The position numbers and the translations under genes are program-made. DNA of 44,124 nt from an uncultured Bacilli bacterium (GTDB taxonomy: Bacteria; Bacillota_I; Bacilli_A; RF39; UBA660): contig CALVON010000004.1 of NCBI GenBank assembly GCA_944350315.1, positions 1 to 44,124 of the forward strand, read 5' to 3'. Numbering within the stretch: position 1 is the first letter of the stretch; every line of letters begins with the position of its first letter. The notes beneath the pieces were generated by a model. It ran no database searches and had not been told where the DNA came from. It saw nothing but the letters and a program-made list of their open reading frames with translations. Of this stretch, positions 32,334-39,600 are shown piece after piece.

Positions 32334-34727
32334 TTAAAATATTAACATTGCTAAAGTTAAAATTACTATAGAAGACAAAGCCAAATATATTATTAATTTA
32401 AATGCCCACTTAAACCATGTTGAATATTCTACTCTAGCAACTGCCAATCCACCCATAATCGCTCCACAAGTAGGAGTTATTAAATTTACTAATCCATTAG
32501 CAGCAACCATTGTCATTACATTAGCCTCTACAGAAAATCCTAATTGACTAGCTAAAGGTCCTAATATTGGTGTAGATAAACTAGCTAATCCTGATGATGA
32601 TGGAACTAATATTGATAATAAAATATGAAGCAAGTAATTACATGGAGTATATAAAATTGCCGGTACGTCTTTTAACCATTCTGCTGCATTATAAATAATA
32701 TAATTATCAAAATGAGTTACACCCATTAATACTGATACTCCACGAGCAATAGCAATAATTAAAATTACTCCAACCATATCATCGGCTCCATCTACAAAAG
32801 TATCAACAGTCTCTTTCTCACTAAAACGATTTACTATACATAAAAATATTGTTACAATTAAAAACCATAAAGCGCCCTCATTAAACCACCAATTACCAAG
32901 TGGAGAACCAGTCAAAAATCCTGTCTTATCTAAGAAAAAGTCTATTCCTAAAGTATCCCATGGAATAAATCCAATAATCATAACTACAAAAGATAACCCA
33001 AATATCCAAAGAGTTATTTTTTGTCTTGTTGTTAGTTTAGCATTATCTTCTTTATTATCTTCACCATATCTTTTCTCCATAGCTTTTTGTTCTTGTAAAG
33101 ATAGAAAGGTTGAACCCTTATCATTTTTTACTTTTTTAGCATATTGCATTACAAACAAAACCGCTATAAGATAAGATGTTAACCACAATGCTATACCTAT
33201 TGCAATAATTATTCCTTGATTTACAGCTATTCCCTCTGGCAAAGCACTAGTAGCTGCACCAACCGCAAAAGGATTTATTGTTGAACCTAATACACCAACT
33301 CCTGCACCAAGCAAGATAGTAGCTGATGCGACAATTGTATCCATACCAGCCGCAACCATTGTAGCTGCAAGCAAAGCATAAAAACCAACGGTCTCTTCTA
33401 GCATTCCATATGTTGTTCCTCCAATACTAAAAATAAACATTAATATTGGGATTAAGAATAATTCCCTACCTTTAAGTTTTTTAATTAATACCTTTATTCC
33501 TGTTTCAAGTGCGCCTGTTTTAGTCACCACCGCCAAATATGCTCCCAAAATCATAACGAAAATACAGACATCAACTGCATCTTGAAATCCCAAAATAGGA
33601 CTAATCAAAATATCTGATAATTTAGCACCTACCACCCCACTACCATTAACAATTTCATCACCTACAAATTTAGCCTGCGGCAACAAATGTGATGCAATTC
33701 CTAATAGAATTAATAAAATTAAAATTATTGAAAAAGCAGAAAGCATAAACTTTTTATTTTTCTTCTTTTTCTTTTCTTTTGCCATCTTTTTATCCTCCTT
33801 ATATATAATTTTAGTACCTGTTTCTCCCCTTAATGCTTCCAATCCATCACTAAGCGAAGAAATAATTGCTATCCCTTTTGGATTATTTGTAACAAAGTTA
33901 ATACAAGCCTCCACCTTGGGCAACATGCTTCCTTTGGCAAACTCACCAGCACGAATATATTTATTAGCTAATCTAACATCTAGCAAATCTAAACTTTGCT
34001 CTTCTTTAGTATTATACTTAATACAGACTTTAGAAACTGCTGTCAATATAAGTAATCTATCTGCTTTAATTAAAGTAGCTAATTTACAAGCAGCAAAATC
34101 TTTATCAATTACTGCATCTACACCTTTATACCCATCACCATCTTTTATAACGGGTATTCCACCACCTCCGCATGTAATCACAACATTTCCATCTGATAAA
34201 AGATTTTCTACTACTTCTTGTTCTAAGATACTAACCGGTTTAGGAGATGGTACTACTCTCCGATAACCACGTCCAGCATCTTCGACAAAAATATAACCTT
34301 TTTCCTTTGCAATTTTCTTGGCTTGCTGTTGGTCATAAAACATTCCTACAGGTTTAGTTGGATTTTTAAAAGCACTATCACGTGGATTAACTAAAACCTG
34401 AGTAATGACTGTCGTACACTCTTTTGATATATTTTCTTTCCTTAGTTCCTCTGAAATCGCCTGTTGCAAATGATATCCAATATATCCTTGACTCATTGCT
34501 CCACATTCAGCAAAAGGCATAAGTGGAGTTCCTGCTTTATTTTGATACGCATTATCAAAAGCTAAATTTATCATTCCGACTTGTGGCCCATTTCCATGAA
34601 CTATAACAACATCGTGTCCCTCTTTTACTATTTTAACAATTTGCTTAGCTGTTTGTTTAACTAATGATAATTGTTCTTCTGGATTGCTTCCTAATGCATT
34701 ACCACCTAAAGCTATTACAATTCTCAA
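32334..34727 (-). CDS. arcC: carbamate kinase (ArcC) fused in frame to a YfcC/ArcD-type transporter
   Basis: One 797-codon frame. Residues 1-314 are a complete carbamate kinase ('VIALGGNALG', 'VVIVHGNGPQVG', 'VITCGGGGIPV', 'AVIDKDFAACKLA', ending 'GTKI'), which makes ATP from carbamoyl phosphate and ADP. From M315 there is a Lys-rich stretch and a roughly 483-residue membrane protein of the YfcC / arginine-ornithine antiporter kind, with many hydrophobic segments and 'LVPSSSGLASLSTPILGPL' near its end. Between them AAGGAGG stands 7-8 nt before the in-frame ATG at 33785, so the transporter can also be made separately. Either a real bifunctional protein or two genes whose separating stop was lost. 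It is third after arcA and arcB. Confidence 0.9.
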   Translation of the reverse strand: MRIVIALGGNALGSNPEEQLSLVKQTAKQIVKIVKEGHDVVIVHGNGPQVGMINLAFDNAYQNKAGTPLMPFAECGAMSQGYIGYHLQQAISEELRKENISKECTTVITQVLVNPRDSAFKNPTKPVGMFYDQQQAKKIAKEKGYIFVEDAGRGYRRVVPSPKPVSILEQEVVENLLSDGNVVITCGGGGIPVIKDGDGYKGVDAVIDKDFAACKLATLIKADRLLILTAVSKVCIKYNTKEEQSLDLLDVRLANKYIRAGEFAKGSMLPKVEACINFVTNNPKGIAIISSLSDGLEALRGETGTKIIYKEDKKMAKEKKKKKNKKFMLSAFSIILILLILLGIASHLLPQAKFVGDEIVNGSGVVGAKLSDILISPILGFQDAVDVCIFVMILGAYLAVVTKTGALETGIKVLIKKLKGRELFLIPILMFIFSIGGTTYGMLEETVGFYALLAATMVAAGMDTIVASATILLGAGVGVLGSTINPFAVGAATSALPEGIAVNQGIIIAIGIALWLTSYLIAVLFVMQYAKKVKNDKGSTFLSLQEQKAMEKRYGEDNKEDNAKLTTRQKITLWIFGLSFVVMIIGFIPWDTLGIDFFLDKTGFLTGSPLGNWWFNEGALWFLIVTIFLCIVNRFSEKETVDTFVDGADDMVGVILIIAIARGVSVLMGVTHFDNYIIYNAAEWLKDVPAILYTPCNYLLHILLSILVPSSSGLASLSTPILGPLASQLGFSVEANVMTMVAANGLVNLITPTCGAIMGGLAVARVEYSTWFKWAFKLIIYLALSSIVILTLAMLIF
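33786..33799 (-). promoter_or_regulatory. internal ribosome site and start for the transporter half of arcC
   Basis: A full AAGGAGG Shine-Dalgarno on the minus strand followed by GATAAAAAG and ATG (33785-33783). There is no stop between the arcC part and this start. The spacing is ideal for separate initiation. Confidence 0.8.
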
Positions 34728-34739
34728 TTTTCACCACCA

Positions 34740-35732
34740 CTATTTCCCATTAACAGTAGCATAAATTATTGCCTTTATTGTATGCATTCTATTTTCGGCC
34801 TCTTCGAAAACTTTAGACTTATCGCTATTAAATACTTCATCAGTTACTTCCATCTCATTAATCCCAAACTTTAAAGAAATTTCTTTACCAATCGTTGTTT
34901 TAGTATCATGAAATGATGGTAAGCAATGCAAAAATATTGCTTTTTCATCTGCATTTTTCATTACATCCATATTTATTTGATAAGGTTTAAGTAAATTAAT
35001 TCTCTCTTCCCATTTACTAGCATCTTCTCCCATTGACAACCAAACATCCGTATATAGCACATGTACTCCTTTTGTACCTTCCATTATATCTTCAGTCATC
35101 TTTATTGTAGAACCACTTTTACTAGCTACTTCCATACATACATTTCTTAACTCTTCAGATGGCCATAACTCTTTTGGAGCACAACAAGTAAAATTAATTC
35201 CTAATTTAGAACATACTACCATCAAAGAATTAGCTACATTATTCCTTGCATCCCCACAAAATGCTAATGTCTTTCCTTTCATACTACCAAGACATTCTTC
35301 TGCCGTCATAATATCTGCTAACATCTGTGTAGGATGAAACTCATTAGTTAAGCCATTCCATACAGGAACAGAAGAATATTTTGCAAGTTCCTCAACAATA
35401 CTTTGTTCAAATCCACGATACTCTATTCCGTCATACATTCTACAAAGTACTCTCGCTGTATCAGCAATACTTTCCTTTTTGCCCATTTGACTACCAGTAG
35501 GTCCTAAATAAGTTACACCCATTCCAAGATCATGTCCAGCTACCTCAAAAGAACATCTGGTTCTTGTACTATCCTTTTCAAATAAAATGGCAATATTTTT
35601 TCCTTCTAAATATCTATGGTTTTTCCCTTTATGTTTTAAAACTTTAAATTTTTTTGCTAAATCAATTAAATATCTAATTTCTTCTTCACTATAATCTAAT
35701 AATTTTAAAAAATCTCTTCCTTTTAAATTCAT
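34740..35732 (-). CDS. arcB: ornithine carbamoyltransferase (catabolic, ADI pathway)
   Basis: A 330-residue enzyme of normal OTCase length. The carbamoyl phosphate site 'STRTRCSF' lies at about residues 55-62; 'EFHPTQMLADI' near 131 and 'FLHCLPSFHD' near 269 hold the ornithine and active-site Cys positions. In this operon it runs from citrulline to ornithine and carbamoyl phosphate. Its ATG is 2 nt past the arcA stop, and the arcC start is 12 nt after its stop. Confidence 0.95.
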   Translation of the reverse strand: MNLKGRDFLKLLDYSEEEIRYLIDLAKKFKVLKHKGKNHRYLEGKNIAILFEKDSTRTRCSFEVAGHDLGMGVTYLGPTGSQMGKKESIADTARVLCRMYDGIEYRGFEQSIVEELAKYSSVPVWNGLTNEFHPTQMLADIMTAEECLGSMKGKTLAFCGDARNNVANSLMVVCSKLGINFTCCAPKELWPSEELRNVCMEVASKSGSTIKMTEDIMEGTKGVHVLYTDVWLSMGEDASKWEERINLLKPYQINMDVMKNADEKAIFLHCLPSFHDTKTTIGKEISLKFGINEMEVTDEVFNSDKSKVFEEAENRMHTIKAIIYATVNGK

Positions 35733-35733
35733 A

Positions 35734-36951
35734 TTAATCCTCTCTTATTAATGGCATACTCATACATCTTGGGCCACCTCTACCACGAGAAAGCTCAGAT
35801 CCATGCATTTCTAATACTTTTATACCATATCTTCTTAAAACAGCATTTGTAATATTATTTCTATCATATACAATAACAACCCCTGGAGCAATACATAAAG
35901 TATTAGATCCATCATTCCATTGTTCCCTTTCAGAAATTATTTTATCTCCTCCGCCACAAGGAATCAAAGTTATATCTCTCTTTAAATACTTTTCTAATAT
36001 ATTTTCCAAATTATCATTAATTTCTCTAACTTTTACCCCTTCAATAACATCTTCCTTAATTTCAAAAACTTGAAGCGTTTCAATAATACCAGGATGATAA
36101 GTAAATTTATCATAATCAATTTGAGTAAACACTGTATCTAAATGCATAAAAGCTCTCGAATTTGGTATATTAAATGCTAATACCGTATCAAATGGACAAT
36201 CTGGATCTTTAAATAAATTTAATGCTAATTGTTCAATTGATTCAGGTAAAGTTCTCTGACTAACACCAATTGCCAAAATATGATCATTTAAAACTAAAAT
36301 ATCTCCGCCTTCAATATGATATGGATTATAACGATCATAATACTTTATAGTACCTTTATAATCAGGATGATATTCAAAAATATATTCCGCATAAATTGTT
36401 TCTCTATTTCTAGTAACTGAATACATTTTATTTAAACTAATTCCATTTCCTATTGAAGCAAAATTATCACGAGTAAAAACTAAATTAGGCATCGGATCCG
36501 CTAAAAATTTAGAGTCTTCTATAACTAAATCCACTAATGAATGCTCCATATCTCTTTCCATTGCAGCAAGTTCACTAACTCTAATTCCTTCCATCGTTTT
36601 AAGAACTAAATCTCTATTATTAAACTCCATCAAAAATTCAATAACTGCATTTTTATATTTTGGTGTCTTAATGCCAGCTTCATATACAAATTGTCTCACA
36701 AATTTTTCTTTAATATTAGGATTAATATCTAAAACCTCAGTCATTAAATCCTCTAAATAAACAACCTCTACTCCATTCATTCGAAGTATTCTAGCAAATT
36801 CATCATGCTCTTCTTGAGCTATTTTTAAATAAGGAATGTCATCAAAAAGTAATCTTTCTAAAGAATCTGGTGTTAAGTTAAGTAATTCATTCCCTGGTCT
36901 ATGTAATAATACCTTCTTAAGTGGCTTAATCTCACTTTTAACATTTATCAT
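35734..36951 (-). CDS. arcA: arginine deiminase
   Basis: A 405-residue enzyme converting arginine to citrulline and ammonia. The 'NVKSEIKPLKKVLLHRPG' N-terminus, 'PNLVFTRDNF', 'HIEGGDILVL', 'HLDTVFTQID' and the catalytic-Cys segment 'GRGGPRCMSMPL' are all present. The start at 36951 follows GGAAGGGTGAT; an in-frame start at 36999 is less likely. First gene of arcA-arcB-arcC, a pathway that yields ATP and ammonia. No ArcR/ArgR gene is in the window. Confidence 0.96.
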   Translation of the reverse strand: MINVKSEIKPLKKVLLHRPGNELLNLTPDSLERLLFDDIPYLKIAQEEHDEFARILRMNGVEVVYLEDLMTEVLDINPNIKEKFVRQFVYEAGIKTPKYKNAVIEFLMEFNNRDLVLKTMEGIRVSELAAMERDMEHSLVDLVIEDSKFLADPMPNLVFTRDNFASIGNGISLNKMYSVTRNRETIYAEYIFEYHPDYKGTIKYYDRYNPYHIEGGDILVLNDHILAIGVSQRTLPESIEQLALNLFKDPDCPFDTVLAFNIPNSRAFMHLDTVFTQIDYDKFTYHPGIIETLQVFEIKEDVIEGVKVREINDNLENILEKYLKRDITLIPCGGGDKIISEREQWNDGSNTLCIAPGVVIVYDRNNITNAVLRRYGIKVLEMHGSELSRGRGGPRCMSMPLIRED

Positions 36952-37012
36952 TATATCACCCTTCCTATCTTTATCAAAAGTATAAACAATTACACTCACC
37001 CTACTATAAAAA

Positions 37013-37127: not shown

Positions 37128-38999
37128 TTATATTAATACTAACGTAACTCTAAATGAATCTGCACTACCATAACCACCTGCAACGCTTGCCATACCAAAA
37201 ATTCCAGCGCGACCATCAACATTATTACAAGAAAGACCTCTATAGAACCACGGAGTACTACTAGTTACAAATCTCATATAATCGCCATGCCAATTTTTCG
37301 TCTCCGATAATGCATGTCCAAAGCATATTGCTCCATTGCATGCCTCTAAAATATTTGTTGATGTATATAAGTCATAATATTTTTTCGAAGGTAACACGTT
37401 AAACCCACTTTCTGCAATTACATTGTTATAATTTCCCATTACATGATCATTAGCTCCACCAGACATGTCATATACACCTGTAATGTTCCCCGTTGTGCTC
37501 GCTACTTTAGTCATGTCTCTTATTGATGATCTGTCATTAGTATTATAATTTAACAAATATCCATCCCAAGTATGGAAGCCATAAGTATTGTATTGAATTG
37601 TTGATGACTGATTTGGATATGTTCCATTTATCGGAGTACTACCAGAAACATTTCCACCGCTTCTTCCCGTATAAAATCTTTTAGTATCTCCATCTCCCAT
37701 ATAGCAACCATTATTTATATATATTTCTCTATTTGATCCATATTTAGAATGTGATAAATAGGCTACGGCTCCCCATTCACTATTCTTCATCATATGACTA
37801 TCGGCATTAGCAGTTAATCCATATGTTGATGAGCCCGCAAATGCCAAATTGCTACTGGATAATGTTCCTCCAGCAAATTTTAATGATGTTTGAAACTGTG
37901 CAGACATATTTTGATATGCTATTAACGATGTTGTATCAGGCAATATTGTTGGCGTTGTAGCGCTTCCGGTTGTTTCAAATTTTCCTACCCATATTCCAGA
38001 TAACTCTTCGCCAGCTTCTCTTACGCCATCACTATCATTATCCCACCAAAATGCTGGATGAGTAATATATTCTCCTACTTGACTACCAGTTGATATTTCA
38101 CTATTTGGTTGAAATATTATTTCTATTTCTTGTTCTTGGCCTGTACTACTTTCTTGTAGTGTCCATATTTTATATTTATATCTTGGTATCCATACAAAGT
38201 ATGCTAATATATCTGATTGATCTACTTCTATATTAGTTGTATTTAGATATTTACTTCTTGATGATTCTGTTACTAATATTGAATTAGCCCACTCTTTATT
38301 ATCATAATTATACCAACTACTATCTGTTGACGATACTGTTTTTATTATGGTATTATTTTCTGATACATCAAATGTTATTGGTATCATTCCTTCATCTAAT
38401 ACTGGTTCATTAGGAATATTTTTATCAGTACAACTTCCATTTAATGATAAACTAAATACTTGATTCATTGTAGACGATGAAGTCTCTTCTGCATCTAACC
38501 ATATCCATAAATAATATGTATCAGTTGTACTAAATAAATAATCTTTCCTATCTAATAATATTATTTTATCTCCAGCTTGTTTTCCTTTAAAATTACCAGT
38601 TACTACAACATCTTGATATGGACTAGTATCCGTTTTAGTAAATGAATACATAAAATAATCACTATTAGATAGTCCTGTACCTATACTATTTATATCTAAC
38701 CATAAATCCATATAGATAGAACCACCAACAGTAATTGTTGGCGTTACTGTTACTTCTCTTTTTATATAATAGGCACGATTTTCTTCAGTCACTTCTGTTG
38801 GGACAATTAGTACATCACCTGTTTCAATATTACCTCCTCCATCAGCAGCACATGAAAAATCTTTTGAAACAGTAAAAACAATATTTGTTTTTTGAGCTTC
38901 AGTTGTCTGCCAAGTAAGATATGCAAAAGACGCACCAATTACTGTAAATATTACTGTTAAAACTGACAATATAATTATTATTTTTTTATTCTTATCCAT
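37128..38999 (-). CDS. secreted surface protein with SipW-type signal and FGE/C-type-lectin-like C-terminal domain
   Basis: A 623-residue exported protein. The N-terminus (basic, then a hydrophobic stretch ending 'GASFAYLTWQ' at about 33) looks like camelysin/TasA-type SipW signals. Residues 35-200 form a beta-rich domain; 'VWIPRYKYKIW' near 275 begins a region that ends like formylglycine-generating-enzyme or DGR-target lectin folds: 'GVYDMSGGANDHVMG', 'WFYRGLSCNNVDGRAG', 'SFRVTLVLI'. In FGE-type enzymes the site contains Cys; here an adhesin or ligand-binding role seems likelier. The start at 38999 follows GGAGG, which occurs twice in a 10-bp tandem duplication. Upstream lie inverted repeats flanking an opposing promoter. 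Confidence 0.72.
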   Translation of the reverse strand: MDKNKKIIIILSVLTVIFTVIGASFAYLTWQTTEAQKTNIVFTVSKDFSCAADGGGNIETGDVLIVPTEVTEENRAYYIKREVTVTPTITVGGSIYMDLWLDINSIGTGLSNSDYFMYSFTKTDTSPYQDVVVTGNFKGKQAGDKIILLDRKDYLFSTTDTYYLWIWLDAEETSSSTMNQVFSLSLNGSCTDKNIPNEPVLDEGMIPITFDVSENNTIIKTVSSTDSSWYNYDNKEWANSILVTESSRSKYLNTTNIEVDQSDILAYFVWIPRYKYKIWTLQESSTGQEQEIEIIFQPNSEISTGSQVGEYITHPAFWWDNDSDGVREAGEELSGIWVGKFETTGSATTPTILPDTTSLIAYQNMSAQFQTSLKFAGGTLSSSNLAFAGSSTYGLTANADSHMMKNSEWGAVAYLSHSKYGSNREIYINNGCYMGDGDTKRFYTGRSGGNVSGSTPINGTYPNQSSTIQYNTYGFHTWDGYLLNYNTNDRSSIRDMTKVASTTGNITGVYDMSGGANDHVMGNYNNVIAESGFNVLPSKKYYDLYTSTNILEACNGAICFGHALSETKNWHGDYMRFVTSSTPWFYRGLSCNNVDGRAGIFGMASVAGGYGSADSFRVTLVLI

Positions 39000-39029
39000 A
39001 CTTCCTCCGACTTCCTCCAAGAAAGGTCA

Positions 39030-39205
39030 TTAAGCATTTTACTTAAAGGTCATTTACTTTATCATAACTCCTTATAATTAAAAGAATCGTATAAATATAA
39101 CATAAATTATTTTTAAATTTTCTCGCAAACTAGATATAGACAAAAATATCATGGCTATGTTATAATTTATATATAATAAAAGTGGCCTTTAAGTAAAATG
39201 CTTAA
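39030..39205. repeat. 20-bp inverted repeats flanking a 136-bp promoter segment (candidate invertible switch)
   Basis: TTAAGCATTTTACTTAAAGG at 39030-39049 occurs in exact inverted form at 39186-39205. The match extends about 6 bp inward with two mismatches. The enclosed segment holds the promoter at 39137-39166. No recombinase gene is in the window. Confidence 0.7.
39137..39166 (+). promoter_or_regulatory. promoter inside the inverted repeats, pointing away from the surface gene
   Basis: TAGACA (39137-39142), 18 bp, TATAAT (39161-39166) with TG of an extended -10. Transcription would start near 39173 and meet the hairpin at 39180-39216. No gene lies downstream on that strand. Confidence 0.65.
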
Positions 39206-39216
39206 AGGTCATTTTT
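39180..39216. terminator. hairpin formed by the right inverted repeat, terminator-like
   Basis: GGCCTTTAAG-taaaatg-CTTAAAGGTC with T5 after it on the plus strand and a short A-run before it. It may end the outward transcript. Confidence 0.6.
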
Positions 39217-39270: not shown

Positions 39271-39600
39271 TTAAACTTTTTCCTCAATATAATCATTGAT
39301 AATTCTACTAGACATAGCTAATTCATCATTAAATTCTTCCATTTTATTTAAATATTCTATATATACTTGTTTACTATTTAATATATCAGATTTCTTTCTT
39401 ATCTCTTCATCTACTAATTTGTAACTATCATCACCATTATTTTCTAAATAAGTTGCTTTTTTTTCTAATGTTTTTATTTCATCAATTAATTTTTTTATTT
39501 CTTCATCTTTATTTAAAATATTTTCTATACTTCGATACTCTTTATATAATTTTGAATTTTCTATTGAATTAAACAATTCTTCTAATTTACTTTCTATCAC
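39271..39600 (-). CDS. YlbF/YmcA (RicA/RicF) family protein
   Basis: A 109-residue, all-helical, charged protein with the YlbF-family pattern: an N-terminal helix with 'LYKEYRSIENILNKDEEIKKLIDEIKTLEKKA', then 'YIEYLNKMEEFNDELA'. In Bacillus subtilis YmcA lies beside miaB and forms the Y-complex with YlbF and YaaT, which affects RNase Y and competence. The same neighbourhood is seen here, overlapping the miaB end by 14 nt. Which of YmcA or YlbF it corresponds to cannot be settled from sequence alone. Confidence 0.8.
   Translation of the reverse strand: MIESKLEELFNSIENSKLYKEYRSIENILNKDEEIKKLIDEIKTLEKKATYLENNGDDSYKLVDEEIRKKSDILNSKQVYIEYLNKMEEFNDELAMSSRIINDYIEEKV

Follow-up and report, generated by a model that had tools for sequence, protein, structure and literature searches.

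A probable invertible promoter, in the OFF orientation, upstream of a surface-protein gene in an uncultured Bacilli genome

Switches of the Mpi type in Bacteroides depend on a global tyrosine invertase, and in the RecV-type switches of Clostridioides difficile (flg, cmr) a recombinase inverts DNA that lies ahead of surface or regulatory genes. The known system closest in design to the locus described here is that of Mycoplasma penetrans: the mpl (P35) surface genes are scattered, they have short invertible promoters of their own, and tyrosine recombinases are the candidate enzymes, as summarized in a passage of PMC2268961 that cites Horino 2003. The same passage refers to Bacteroides recombinases that act globally on several loci and to the vpma genes of Mycoplasma agalactiae, where the sites of a dedicated stand-alone tyrosine recombinase, Xer1, fall within the 5' untranslated regions of the surface genes. 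According to the abstract of PMC7446863, phase variation at the flagellar switch of C. difficile requires Rho factor. Among open-licence papers, no title or abstract was found that describes invertible promoters in the lineage studied here.

The element that we analyzed lies in a stretch of 44,124 nt (the window), which is contig C4 of G000, a 1.18-Mb MAG of 46 contigs from an uncultured Bacilli/Tenericutes group. We conclude that it is very probably an invertible promoter switch, read in its OFF orientation. The cell can probably turn the surface protein on and off, because an OFF cassette is present here, an ON cassette in a sister species, and a matching recombinase in the genome. As in M. 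penetrans, a separate invertible promoter appears to serve each surface gene at scattered loci (C4, C33, C21). Unlike the M. penetrans genes, the gene here encodes a protein (P0001) without a P35-type lipoprotein cysteine, the one feature tested; the site sequence is its own, and the far site seems to double as a terminator. By that one feature the genes belong to different families, so we class the element as an invertible promoter and not as an mpl system. With the Mpi-type switches it shares short promoter segments between inverted repeats, several loci and surface products, but phylum and site sequence are different, and the product is a surface protein here and capsule there. It resembles the C. 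difficile flg and cmr switches in the proposed inversion upstream of a surface gene; unlike in the Rho-dependent flagellar switch, the segment here contains the promoter itself. Like vpma/Xer1, the system would combine a stand-alone tyrosine recombinase with sites that fall within the 5' untranslated regions of its surface genes, but there one promoter is exchanged between genes, whereas here each gene has its own. The mechanism would thus be a known one, promoter inversion, newly met in this lineage.

Table 1. Features of the switch locus and its neighbors (window coordinates)
Feature	Position	Strand	Remarks
Surface-protein gene	37128..38999	-	ORF; 623 aa; hydrophobic, SipW-type-looking signal region; member of a paralogous family
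Ribosome-binding boxes	39001-39008 and 39011-39018	-	GGAGGAAG; from sequence; between ATG 38999 and the gene-side repeat
Gene-side recombination site (putative)	39030..39052	no strand	outer TTAAG, core CATTTTA (39035-39041), inner half CTTAAAGGTCA
Invertible segment (putative)	39053..39182	no strand	130 bp, from one 23-bp site arm to the other
Extended -10 promoter	39137..39166	+	TAGACA-N18-TATAAT with TG; -35 TAGACA 39137-39142, 18-bp spacer, TG 39158-39159, -10 TATAAT 39161-39166; directed away from the surface gene (OFF)
Far recombination site (putative)	39183..39211	no strand	TGGCCTTTAAG-TAAAATG-CTTAAAGGTCA, 11-7-11; holds exact repeat 39186-39205
T-run TTTTT	39212..39216	+	completes the far site as predicted intrinsic terminator of the OFF transcript
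Upstream neighbor, YlbF/YmcA-like gene	39271..39600	-	PF06133; outside the switch

A sequence-only reading of the window had drawn attention to exact inverted repeats of 20 bp that enclose 136 bp, to an extended -10 promoter pointing away from the surface gene and into a hairpin, with no gene to serve, and to a ribosome site just beyond the left repeat. All of these elements were recovered (Table 1). The sequence TTAAGCATTTTACTTAAAGG occupies 39030-39049, and its exact reverse complement lies at 39186-39205, with 136 bp between the two 20-bp arms; this is the longest inverted repeat of its sort in the window, and the longest exact pair (spacing 40-700 bp) in 40 Markov shuffles was 17 bp. Each repeat is the matched portion of a longer 11-7-11 quasi-palindrome, and the distance from core start to core start is 159 bp. 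The promoter matches the consensus at 11 of 12 positions and is the only strong one inside the 136 bp; on the two strands of the window together there are only 5 TG promoters of equal quality, where shuffles predict 0.43. The far quasi-palindrome begins ∼16 bp past the -10 box and, folded as a hairpin, has 11-bp arms, a 7-bp loop and a stability of about -16 kcal/mol; the next gene rightwards is on the other strand. The gene-side site has no T-run on the side of the gene and forms a weak hairpin (-3.5 kcal/mol now, -6.0 after inversion). A weak extended -10 element, TGTTATATT, on the - strand might allow some expression of the surface gene even in the OFF state. No match to Rfam was found in the window, and a search of IMG/VR found neither junction of the unit.

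The start of the surface gene is most likely the ATG at 38999, not the TTG of the longest ORF. The 623-aa product has paralogs in its own genome at 53-76% identity and homologs in 25 of the 60 genomes searched; Pfam, NCBIfam, PHROGs and PDB gave no match. Its N-terminus suggests a surface location, and by inspection the signal region contains no cysteine. The C-terminal region (approximately residues 190-620) is common to very many proteins of relatives; it too is without a match in Pfam, NCBIfam or PDB.

As the sequence-only reading had envisaged, the same repeats stand before other surface genes. Complete units precede such genes at C4 (the window), C33 and C21 of G000, all three OFF; the unit at C33:37.7k is 92% identical to that of the window and the unit at C21:1-276 is 76% identical. 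These copies were located by search rather than by an exhaustive scan of the genome. At the paralogous surface genes of C25, C1:60k and C34:8.2k the repeats are absent, and a fixed TAGACA-N17-TATAAT faces the gene. Partial copies at C36, C19 and C43 (L011, L012, L018) retain the far site and the outward promoter; no gene-side site was seen at any of them, and in two of the three the -35 is unrecognizable. They adjoin unrelated genes, and conservation in them extends from the -10 box to the hairpin. Terminators similar in sequence to the far site also occur at C1:34.7k and C1:85.7k. An exact stretch of 127 nt is common to the end of C33, the end of C34 and the start of C21 (L013, L014, L010). 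It falls inside an invertible unit, giving one surface gene two upstream contexts, by duplication or rearrangement; since a shared 127 nt marks a k=127 assembly node, a fourth unit in G000 or a second context for the C21 unit is likely.

The opposite orientation is met in G005, a sister species of the same genus, in which three homologous surface genes have a unit with TTTACA-N17-TATAAT facing the gene (ON, 3/3). These units were located via the surface protein, not via the DNA of the window segment, which as a query against 98 genomes gave only weak short matches outside G000 (best E 1.8e-5). One unit was also found in a third species, G006, near a contig end, with the promoter directed towards that end and the gene out of view. 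A run of T5-6 follows the far site in C33 and in the three G005 units, and not in G006. The window segment is homologous to the C33 and C21 segments and also, when flipped, to those of G005. How strong is this last relationship? In local alignments with the G005 segments, C21 scored 48-57 flipped and 20-28 unflipped, against a shuffle maximum of 43, and BLAST independently matched C21:49-100 to G005 on the opposite strand (52 bp, 79%, E 6e-5). Aligned globally, C4 and C33 also do better flipped than unflipped, with flipped scores of 23.5-32 that are weak and near the null (shuffle maxima 27-32), and the local scores are not above the null.

The strongest support for opposite orientations is the constant geometry of the seven units (three in G000, three in G005, one in G006): the core-to-core distance is 158-161 bp in all of them, and 117-120 bp separate the -10 box from the opposite core in 7/7, whichever way the promoter points. 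Five of the seven units have two identical 7-bp cores, yet the cores differ between loci; identity within a unit is expected if strand exchange must keep the cores matched. Both orientations thus occur among homologous units, between species only (one genome per species), and the complete units of each genome agree with one another. A genome-contig scan, from which records very near G000 may be absent, returned no second strain of the window species.

The genome encodes an enzyme of the right class. G000:C1:44833-45798 specifies a stand-alone tyrosine recombinase of 322 aa (PF00589, E 3e-29) in which the catalytic residues R154, H259, R262, H285 and Y295 are all present. The sequence-only reading had proposed a search for a recombinase near the element; this one co-occurs with the units, but its gene is on C1 and not beside the window unit on C4. 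The rest of the G000 set consists of two Xer-type enzymes, a fragment at C2 and four large serine recombinases. We considered the last group as well, and 11-7-11 sites are better suited to a tyrosine enzyme. Identity of the 322-aa protein with XerC/XerD was rejected, as it scores 72-75 bits against equivalog cut-offs of 330-335 and falls in a separate clade. Among six other species of the genus, an ortholog (67%) was found in G005 only, so that the two multi-unit species were the only ones of the genus in which a stand-alone tyrosine recombinase was found; the next-best relatives (33-39%) belong to other genera. No ortholog was found in G006 (genome 70% complete), which has a unit. In both G000 and G005 the gene is flanked by pgsA on one side and an amidase-like gene on the other; in G005 this interval also includes a surface gene whose promoter is fixed and of ON type. 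We infer that the C1 enzyme is the best candidate for inverting the units, acting in trans.

In a tree, the G000 and G005 recombinases group with seven relatives (support 99/96), apart from Xer. Inverted repeats of 18-28 bp surround the recombinase at five of nine loci of this clade, against none of 24 control recombinase loci, and some of the clade repeats precede genes that resemble SipW/TasA-type surface operons. The related recombinases of G025, G028, G012, G030 and G081 (L160, L162, L159, L161, L164, L165) lie inside repeats ∼0.9-1.3 kb apart, the G030 pair being imperfect; some of these loci precede SipW/TasA-like operons or paired NusG-like short proteins. Recombinases enclosed in this way by their own inverted repeats are probable self-inverting switches. 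The site motif AAGT-N5-ACTT also occurs in the repeat cores of G025, G028 and G009. Pairs of this motif with identical cores come from five genomes of relatives; most pairs have non-identical cores and were taken as chance. At G009:C10 (L163/L257) the clade recombinase is followed, ∼100 bp away, by a core-identical repeat pair, AAGTTTATAACTT, 143 bp apart, directly before a sigma-factor-like gene, which possibly makes this sigma factor phase-variable; further on there is another pair, exact over 22 bp and with a gap of 123. Upstream of a pilin-like gene at G033:C65 (L265) there is a core-identical pair, AAGTATTGTACTT, 168 bp apart; no recombinase of the clade was found in G033.

These observations suggest how the switch would work. 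Strand exchange by a tyrosine recombinase would take place within the 7-bp cores (CATTTTA/TAAAATG) of both 11-7-11 sites, and the segment between them would be inverted. In the OFF state the promoter would fire into the far site, where the hairpin and the outer T-run would end transcription; since the far site doubles as a terminator, OFF would amount to a dead-end transcript of ∼50 nt. In the ON state the same promoter, inverted, would face the gene. Its transcript would start ∼60 nt before the ATG, cross the gene-side site, and proceed into the ribosome site and the gene, so that the surface protein would be made; read-through is expected because the gene-side outer half gives no strong hairpin and no T-run. 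The far site thus seems to be a recombination site and a terminator at once. Judging from the sequences, inversion may well be ongoing, with the C1 recombinase presumably acting and expression following orientation. A broader extrapolation, which we regard as unlikely, is that in uncultured mycoplasma relatives from the gut one stand-alone recombinase drives switches all over the genome, with sites that double as terminators and with units set together; the last element comes from the fact that every complete unit of one genome is in the same state.

Uniform orientation can also be read in another way. Because all complete units of a species agree, one old flip, fixed before the units multiplied, could have left each lineage locked (the G000 species OFF, G005 ON) with no switching today, and the partial copies, which have no gene-side arm and in two cases a lost -35, would fit such a relic. 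However, the cores have stayed identical within loci although the loci have diverged from each other, the promoter is intact, and the recombinase is intact in exactly the two multi-unit species, which makes a locked relic quite improbable. We give far less weight to a small-RNA gene, in which promoter and hairpin would produce a functional RNA of ∼50 nt, repeated in the genome, with the gene-side repeat incidental or a target. Conservation of the stretch from -10 to terminator, even in the partial copies, speaks for such a gene, but at the site that they share the RNA and the gene leader are transcribed in the same sense, so the common core does not pair; moreover, a recognizable -35 is lost in two of the three partial copies, and the G005 units have their promoter aimed at the gene.

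The genome has several copies, and some precede unrelated genes, which would suit a MITE-like small mobile repeat, bounded by terminal inverted repeats, that inserted ahead of surface genes. Such an element is highly unlikely: the complete units with a visible gene precede surface-type genes, near the ribosome site, the partial copies are without one end, and the segments have diverged to ∼70% with their spacing kept. The idea that the repeats act only as terminators holds for the far arm, which is terminator-like, as are the similar sequences on C1; it leaves the gene-side arm, the 158-161 bp spacing and the flipped units unexplained. A plain intergenic terminator with chance repeats has in addition to contend with an exact 20-bp pair that exceeds the shuffles and with repeated units of constant spacing, and its probability is close to nil. 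The invertible promoter in its present OFF state, as the sequence-only reading had it, is supported by the copies in G000, the flipped units of G005 and the co-occurring recombinase.

If this interpretation is true, promoter inversion of surface proteins in the style of mycoplasmas extends to a lineage of uncultured gut Bacilli (Tenericutes). The recombinase clade and the site motif could then be used to look for such switches, and the loci are defined, with an orientation that can be read straight from existing metagenomes.

Elsewhere in the window, a single frame of 797 aa (32334-34727, - strand) combines an amino-acid-kinase domain with a DcuC-type carrier. It adjoins genes for OTC and arginine deiminase (34740-35732 and 35734-36999), and looks like a carbamate kinase fused to an arginine/ornithine carrier in an arginine deiminase operon.
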